DNA from: Cladorhizidae sp. MBARI D1340-BT2
Taxonomy: Eukaryota; Porifera; Demospongiae; Poecilosclerida; Cladorhizidae
DNA: 64,000 nucleotides
Assembly: GCA_028752905.1 (NCBI GenBank)
Contig: JAQNBH010000003.1
Span: 35,616,697 to 35,680,696 of the forward strand
Direction of reading: 5' to 3'
Below the pieces are notes generated by a model. It had not been told where the DNA came from. It was given only the letters and a program-made list of their open reading frames with translations, and did no database searches. How positions within the stretch are numbered: position 1 is the stretch's first letter; each line of letters opens with the position of its first letter. Positions 11,298-62,404 of the stretch are shown here, piece by piece. Made by a program: the position numbers and the translations under genes.

Positions 11298-11350
11298 CTC
11301 AGGATGTTGAGACAAACATTCCCTTCCAGGTCAATGTTAGGGTGGTAGAC
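11298..11350 (-). CDS. UBE2M: UBE2M exon 5 (HPN motif and catalytic Cys, residues 95-111)
   Basis: The acceptor is TTGTTGCAG (from 11351) and the donor is GTAAGTA (11297-11291). The exon encodes VYHPNIDLEGNVCLNIL plus two bases of an Arg codon. It carries the E2 HPN motif (residues 97-99) and the presumed thioester Cys107. The following exon, expected to start with EDWKP, is not visible in 1-11297. Confidence 0.95.

Positions 11351-62404: not shown

Follow-up and report, generated by a model that had tools for sequence, protein, structure and literature searches.

The stretch of sponge DNA analysed here, called the window, is 64,000 nucleotides long and occupies C12:35616697-35680696 in a whole assembly of 857,237,253 bases and 325 contigs. 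It carries on its minus strand the first five coding exons of a UBE2M gene, separated by long introns in which tandem arrays are abundant. Exon 1 (62308..62404, 97 bp) holds the ATG and ends at the donor AAG/GTAAGT, and exon 4 (19354..19404, 51 bp) ends at CAG/GTCTGT, the weakest donor among the six. Exon 2 (42482..42576, 95 bp), exon 3 (33566..33604, 39 bp) and exon 5 (11298..11350, 53 bp), which encodes the predicted catalytic Cys107, were each read directly and from the joined frame, exon 3 also by a search within the window. A sequence-only reading had proposed five micro-exons of 97, 95, 39, 51 and 53 bp that make up UBE2M as far as its catalytic cysteine. Direct reading bears this out, for the five exons lie on the minus strand at the coordinates claimed, with GT...AG introns between them, and join in frame, through the catalytic-cysteine motif NVCLNIL, into 335 coding bases with a stop-free translation, MIKLF...VCLNIL, of 112 amino acids.

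With Geodia barretti Ubc12 as a query against the assembly, we recovered the missing 3' end of the gene on the same contig and strand. Exon 6 (C12:35610435-35610529, minus strand, 95 bp) lies outside the window, about 6.2 kb past its start, and exon 7 (C12:35603436-35603545, minus strand, 110 bp), which ends in TAG, about 13.2 kb past it. The seven exons form one open frame of 540 coding bases and 179 amino acids, and all six introns (19,731, 8,877, 14,161, 8,003, 17,464 and 6,889 bp) have GT-AG borders. From ATG to stop the gene spans 75,665 bp, about 140 bases for each coding base. The gene length of 51+ kb first proposed therefore stands as a lower bound, since the gene continues 13 kb past the window to reach 75,665 bp in all; a coding share of well under 1% holds for the full span (540/75,665, 0.71%); and the statement that no exon reaches 100 bp is true inside the window but fails for the final coding exon of 110 bp.

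The identity of the product is clear from its relatives. The 112-residue piece from exons 1-5 matches Ubc12 of the PDB at E = 3.9e-56, which rules out chance, and the 179-residue protein does so at E = 9.9e-99 to 1.3e-93 (2nvu, 4p5o, 1y8x), compared with 1.1e-30 for UBE2F, the other NEDD8 E2, and 5.7e-26 for the best remaining E2. Its closest named proteins are from sponges, with 85% identity to Geodia barretti Ubc12 and 83% to Ephydatia Ubc12, and residues 29-163 form a UBC domain (Pfam UQ_con PF00179, 135.6 bits against a cut-off of 27). The N-terminal extension MIKLFMLKQQ aligns with MIKLFSLKQQ of Ubc12, a segment that presumably docks on the NEDD8 E1 and DCN1. A YHPN motif is followed by NVCLNIL with the catalytic cysteine (YHPNIDLEGNVCLNIL); Cys107, in exon 5, aligns with that of Ubc12, and we take the residues of both motifs, the catalytic cysteine included, to have their customary roles. 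Judged from sequence, the gene is UBE2M/UBC12 and its product a predicted NEDD8 E2, nearer to Ubc12 than to UBE2F or the ubiquitin E2s. UBE2M enzymes attach NEDD8 to cullins, as this one would be predicted to do, and its status as an essential gene comes from other organisms.

The gene appears to be single-copy. The Geodia query gave 28 matches in the assembly, six of them exons of this gene and 22 of them other E2-like stretches of 31-55% identity; the check for a second intact UBE2M elsewhere, suggested by the sequence-only reading, thus found none among these 28 matches, in a search that scores just its best candidates. The 39-bp exon 3 went unregistered in the assembly-wide search, and was matched when the search was confined to the window (E = 0.003 with the Geodia query, 2.4e-4 with a mollusc query). 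A Pfam E2 family search of the assembly returned 43 matches with none on C12, and so overlooked UBE2M altogether. The gene had been described as hidden inside minisatellite DNA; it is indeed easily missed, but it is not specially hidden, as minisatellites are abundant genome-wide. For annotators the locus is a warning: its exons are shorter than ORF cut-offs usually allow, and the Pfam search for the E2 family is blind to the gene.

Tandem arrays and transposons in the introns

Arrays identified by Tandem Repeats Finder (TRF) make up 60.2% of the window; for the UBE2M gene the figure is 56.9%. A 57-bp array starts 242 bp upstream of the ATG (62647..64000, ending outside the window at 64267). 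Intron 1 holds a 33/65-bp array (59634..61198), a 12/25-bp CCCTAG-like array (54304..58959), a 55-bp array (45337..53177, in two parts, 45337-45580 and 52369-53177, with a retrotransposon between them), and two 37-bp arrays (42800..44036 and 44326..44991) that are unrelated by comparison of samples. Intron 2 contains 142 copies of a 31-bp unit (34868..39206), and intron 3 contains a 49-bp array with a composite period of 157 bp (31203..32068), a 30-bp array (28501..30939) and 234 copies of a 29-bp unit (20058..26814). A 45-bp array (17266..18842) lies in intron 4, and intron 5 has a 40-bp array with a composite period of 141 bp (8077..10174) and an 18-bp array (1..7323) that continues beyond the window to a total of 12,062 bp. 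The 29-, 31- and 45-bp arrays were also followed by genome search.

A minisatellite has a unit of 6-99 nt, as the term is used in PMC2688266. For thirteen of the 17 arrays in the gene (at least 200 bp long, with a period of at least 7) the best period lies between 18 and 66 bp, which is minisatellite size; the other four, at 116-157 bp, are either composite or present in few copies. The array share of introns 1-6 is 47, 60, 76, 29, 85 and 6%, so that the description of the introns as mostly repeats is right overall (56.9% arrays) and too strong for introns 4 and 6, at only 29% and 6%. We note that the 18-bp array yields open frames at 489-7421 on the plus strand (2,310 codons) and 485-6250 on the minus strand (1,921 codons) because 18 is a multiple of three; these frames are likely meaningless and an annotation trap. 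Upstream of UBE2M, at C12:35683471-35700693, lies an array of 17 kb whose 32/96-bp family is dispersed, seven of 60 sampled loci matching it.

Two transposons were recognized in the introns, both on the plus strand and thus antisense to UBE2M. In intron 1, a Pao/BEL LTR retrotransposon (45580..52369) has LTRs (45580-46139 and 51810-52369) identical at 560 of 560 positions and a 5-bp target duplication at its flanks, and its ORF (46166-51745) matches PF05380 (Pao peptidase), PF00078 (reverse transcriptase) and PF00665 (integrase) above their cut-offs. The complete identity of two 560-bp LTRs suggests that the insertion is likely recent. The element sits within the 55-bp array, the unit of which is common to both array halves, and the array therefore predates it. 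In intron 4, an open frame of 737 amino acids (13219..15432) is of hAT type, with a hAT dimerisation domain detected by Pfam; the search for terminal repeats gave just a poly-G/poly-C match around it, and we claim no element ends. When arrays and both transposons are taken away, 22,698 bp of intron DNA are left. A Pfam search of 17 selected other ORFs (of 214 listed) found no host genes nested in the introns; three of the 17 had a match, two to reverse transcriptase and one to a kinase fragment, and these three lie in the downstream flank. The window holds no tRNAs and no Rfam family at gathering score.

The locus compared with the rest of the genome

The abundance of arrays is not confined to this gene. 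Of 56 loci taken at round coordinates across the assembly, two consisted almost wholly of N and were set aside. The 54 kept hold 124,000 non-N bases, of which 33,445 (27.0%, with a bootstrap interval of 19-36% for the mean) lie in arrays of period at least 7; ten of these loci are at least half array and 11 are without any. Stretches between cullin exons are 26.1% array (n = 15, from 16 fetched, one being dropped for N), and eight E2 loci of about 3.3 kb are 12% array. By 2-kb pieces, UBE2M is 57% array against 25% for 16 cullin stretches (Mann-Whitney p = 0.008) and 31% for 20 spread stretches (p = 0.007), comparisons in which neighbouring pieces are non-independent and N counts as zero. The presence of similar arrays in spread loci and in cullin introns suggests that UBE2M is an extreme case of a genome-wide habit rather than a special hiding place.

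Gene length points the same way. Spans estimated by homology matches are 0.3-14.9 kb for 11 other E2 genes, 23-60 kb for six cullins and 5.4-27.4 kb for seven chaperonin genes, where matches were grouped into genes by hand, single hits and multicopy clusters were omitted, and all values are lower bounds because the search overlooks tiny exons. None of the six UBE2M introns is shorter than 6,889 bp, a length reached by 18 of 77 gaps in the other E2, cullin and chaperonin genes. The UBE2M locus has about twice the array content of the sampled genome, and its introns are consistently long.

Several other features of the assembly were encountered along the way. Many tandem chaperonin-like (Cpn60_TCP1) gene pieces lie at C14:39.39-39.66 Mb, some exactly 13,700 bp apart. 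At C3:23.1-28.8 Mb the central part of the chaperonin family (about 141-370) is matched more than ten times, in open frames of up to 1,167 amino acids; this second group is possibly an expanded intron-poor gene family. Contigs C124-C128, from which loci L037 and L038 come, carry many copies of mitochondrial cox1, irregularly spaced and either complete or reduced to a 5' or a 3' part. The DNA upstream of cox1 is unlike between L037 and L038, and cox1 fragments also occur on C2 and other chromosomes. This repetition reflects either a recombining mitogenome or an assembly artefact. Translated with table 4, cox1 is 89% identical to a demosponge cluster and 94% identical to one further sequence, which supports Demospongiae as the likely source of the assembly.

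Proposed origin of the arrays and predicted expression of the gene

Most of the arrays appear to be local. Fourteen array samples (13 from the window and one from upstream) show no matches among themselves, and 12 of the 13 window samples are unmatched in the 60 sampled loci. The 25-bp array has a relative in locus L055, and the AT-rich 122-bp array has one in L052. Grouping 66 arrays of at least 200 bp (42 sampled, 17 from the UBE2M gene and seven from flanks) gave 58 clusters. When 201-bp samples were searched against the genome, the matches fell largely inside the array of origin: 47 of 47 for the 29-bp array, 31 of 33 for the 31-bp array and 10 of 14 for the 45-bp array. The 18-bp sample failed to register its own array; what it matched were six stretches, short or diverged, on C3, C4, C5 and C14, which shows that such a search can miss copies and that the absence of copies elsewhere is not firm.

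Within ten arrays, the longest stretches that recur exactly at a displaced position measure 599 bp (about 21 units of 29 bp), at a distance of 2,217 bp, and 431 bp (about 24 units of 18 bp), at 1,254 bp. Displaced duplications of this length are not easily made by slippage alone and point to unequal exchange or gene conversion; together with the mostly local families, they suggest birth from local sequence followed by recombination. Each array would have started from a short local sequence and grown via slippage plus internal recombination, either unequal exchange or gene conversion, and selection would tolerate this growth while exons and splice sites survive.

Isoform models of other animals bear on the age of the introns. 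Several vertebrate isoform models (P0007, P0008, P0015, P0057, P0064) lose the UBE2M frame directly after NILR, the site of intron 5, and two bat models (P0012, P0017) change the R of NILR into S, a change that is permitted because the codon is split after its second base. A bird model and one further protein (P0011, P0059) lose the frame after PLNK, the site of intron 6, and three more models (P0006, P0009, P0010) do so after QYLFL, where the sponge gene is without an intron. Frame losses at the sites of introns 5 and 6 suggest that at least these two look ancestral and subsequently enlarged rather than newly inserted, a reading drawn from isoforms and not from gene alignments.

Scored with a generic matrix, the donors of introns 1-6 reach 12.5, 7.3, 11.5, 6.0, 12.0 and 8.1 bits; five of the six are thus at 7.3-12.5 bits, and the GTCTGT donor of exon 4, at 6.0 bits, would be the first candidate site for exon skipping. 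Candidate polyadenylation signals occur from about 444 bp past the stop. We consider it highly probable that this is an apparently single-copy, seven-exon UBE2M, with predicted ordinary transcription and splicing, whose introns have likely expanded as minisatellites grew locally. The pre-mRNA would be about 76 kb long, exon definition would pick out its seven small exons, most of which have strong splice sites, and normal splicing would give a predicted normal NEDD8 E2.

Two sequence signs were tried and rejected. One, taken as a candidate mark of transcription, was a shortage of premature-polyadenylation signals: the word AATAAA is scarce on the sense strand of the unique UBE2M intron DNA in the window region 11298-62404 (4 sense, 25 antisense; p = 1e-4 by a binomial test, AATAAA being one among 11 words tried), a bias that weakened to p = 0.006 against other A5T words and was absent in cullin introns, with 17 sense and 13 antisense. 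The other, a lack of cryptic donors within arrays, was likewise set aside: sites of at least 7 bits number nine sense and nine antisense in 43,020 array bases, against 63 sense and 46 antisense in 32,105 bases of the remaining introns, but each array offers few independent units, both strands are alike, and 122 antisense array sites appear at 6 bits.

Other accounts of the locus were considered. It is very unlikely, in our estimation, that assembly error has inflated the array lengths, and hence the 75.7-kb span, or wrongly brought the exons together. Arrays of up to 12-17 kb are difficult to assemble and the mitochondrial contigs of this assembly are oddly repeated, but the seven exons lie in order on one strand of a single contig of 43.5 Mb, the 124 kb examined contain no N, the units within arrays are diverged rather than identical, and removal of the arrays and two transposons still leaves 22,698 bp of intron. 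We give slightly less weight still to a decaying or silent locus, in which the exons would be a relic and a compact UBE2M absent from a possibly incomplete assembly would do the work. Two transposon frames, one fresh insertion and the weak donor of exon 4 would be at home in such a relic; on the other side, all 179 of 179 codons are open, the six introns are all GT-AG, 28 matches include no second copy, and a full-length identity of 83-85% to sponge Ubc12 is not expected of a relic this old. That the intronic minisatellites might regulate UBE2M splicing or delay the transcript, for which there are precedents in Drosophila kl-3/kl-5 (PMC6508621) and C. elegans intronic minisatellites (PMC4039745), and which the roughly twofold array share over sampled DNA would suit, seems equally improbable, as cullin introns and spread loci hold arrays of like kind and amount, array sequences vary between introns, and every sequence sign of function failed its control.

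Ordinary expression of a gene with introns inflated by local arrays is thus the reading we carry forward. The same array growth is likely genome-wide, with UBE2M at the extreme end. Whether it accounts for the size of the genome is a matter on which we are more doubtful than confident: we propose, tentatively, that the genome may owe much of its growth to minisatellites that continually arise in place, nearly every one its own family, in introns and between genes, turning housekeeping genes into intron giants of which UBE2M is the most extreme here. The interest lies in the combination of a conserved housekeeping-type gene with a large sponge genome of which, by sampling, about one quarter is tandem arrays of mostly local kinds. 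If upheld, this would be genome growth via local repeat birth, and it would offer a clean system in which to study how the splicing machinery picks out an exon of 39 bp from kilobases of recombining repeats, and which factors allow such arrays to arise and persist. If true, UBE2M would also be a natural test of the tandem-repeat load that a vital gene can bear.

Comparison with known systems

Long introns are usually blamed on transposons. The human UBE2M gene is only a few kb, against 75.7 kb with 57% arrays here. The full-length protein is shared with UBE2M/UBC12 elsewhere, as are the positions of introns 5 and 6 according to isoform models, whereas the intron after QYLFL suggested by other animals' models is absent from the sponge gene. 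Among the titles and abstract openings listed from the open-licence literature on sponge minisatellites, satellite DNA, tandem repeats, introns and UBE2M, none describes an arrangement of this kind.

Geodia barretti and Ephydatia muelleri are likely of the same class as the present sponge. The Geodia barretti paper (PMC10542158) gives 58-419 Mb for sponge assemblies and about 782 Mb as the upper end of measured genomes; at 857 Mb, the present assembly is above both. The introns of Ephydatia muelleri are described in PMC7385117 as relatively small compared with other animals, and Dysidea avara (2026) is stated to have the largest span among the species compared in its own report (PMC12909245). 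Nothobranchius furzeri, with 20.6% tandem repeats and abundant minisatellites, is called exceptional in PMC2688266; in that genome a few families dominate, one 77-nt family making up about 10%, and the main ones are centromeric. The sponge genome, by sampling, is at about 27%, with 66 arrays in 58 families and introns included, although TRF settings differ between the two.

Long introns filled with repeats are an already known phenomenon. Intronic minisatellites of C. elegans have been linked with alternative splicing (PMC4039745). The closest functional precedent is offered by the Drosophila Y genes kl-3 and kl-5, which, like UBE2M, are protein-coding with introns largely of tandem repeats; in genes of this kind, the repeat-filled introns are transcribed, and there are RNA-binding proteins dedicated to them (PMC6508621). 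The same paper describes kl-3 and kl-5 as male-fertility genes with megabases of simple satellite amounting to more than 99% of the locus. UBE2M falls outside that giant-intron class, being a housekeeping-type gene with introns of 6.9-19.7 kb and 56.9% arrays, composed of many unrelated minisatellites.
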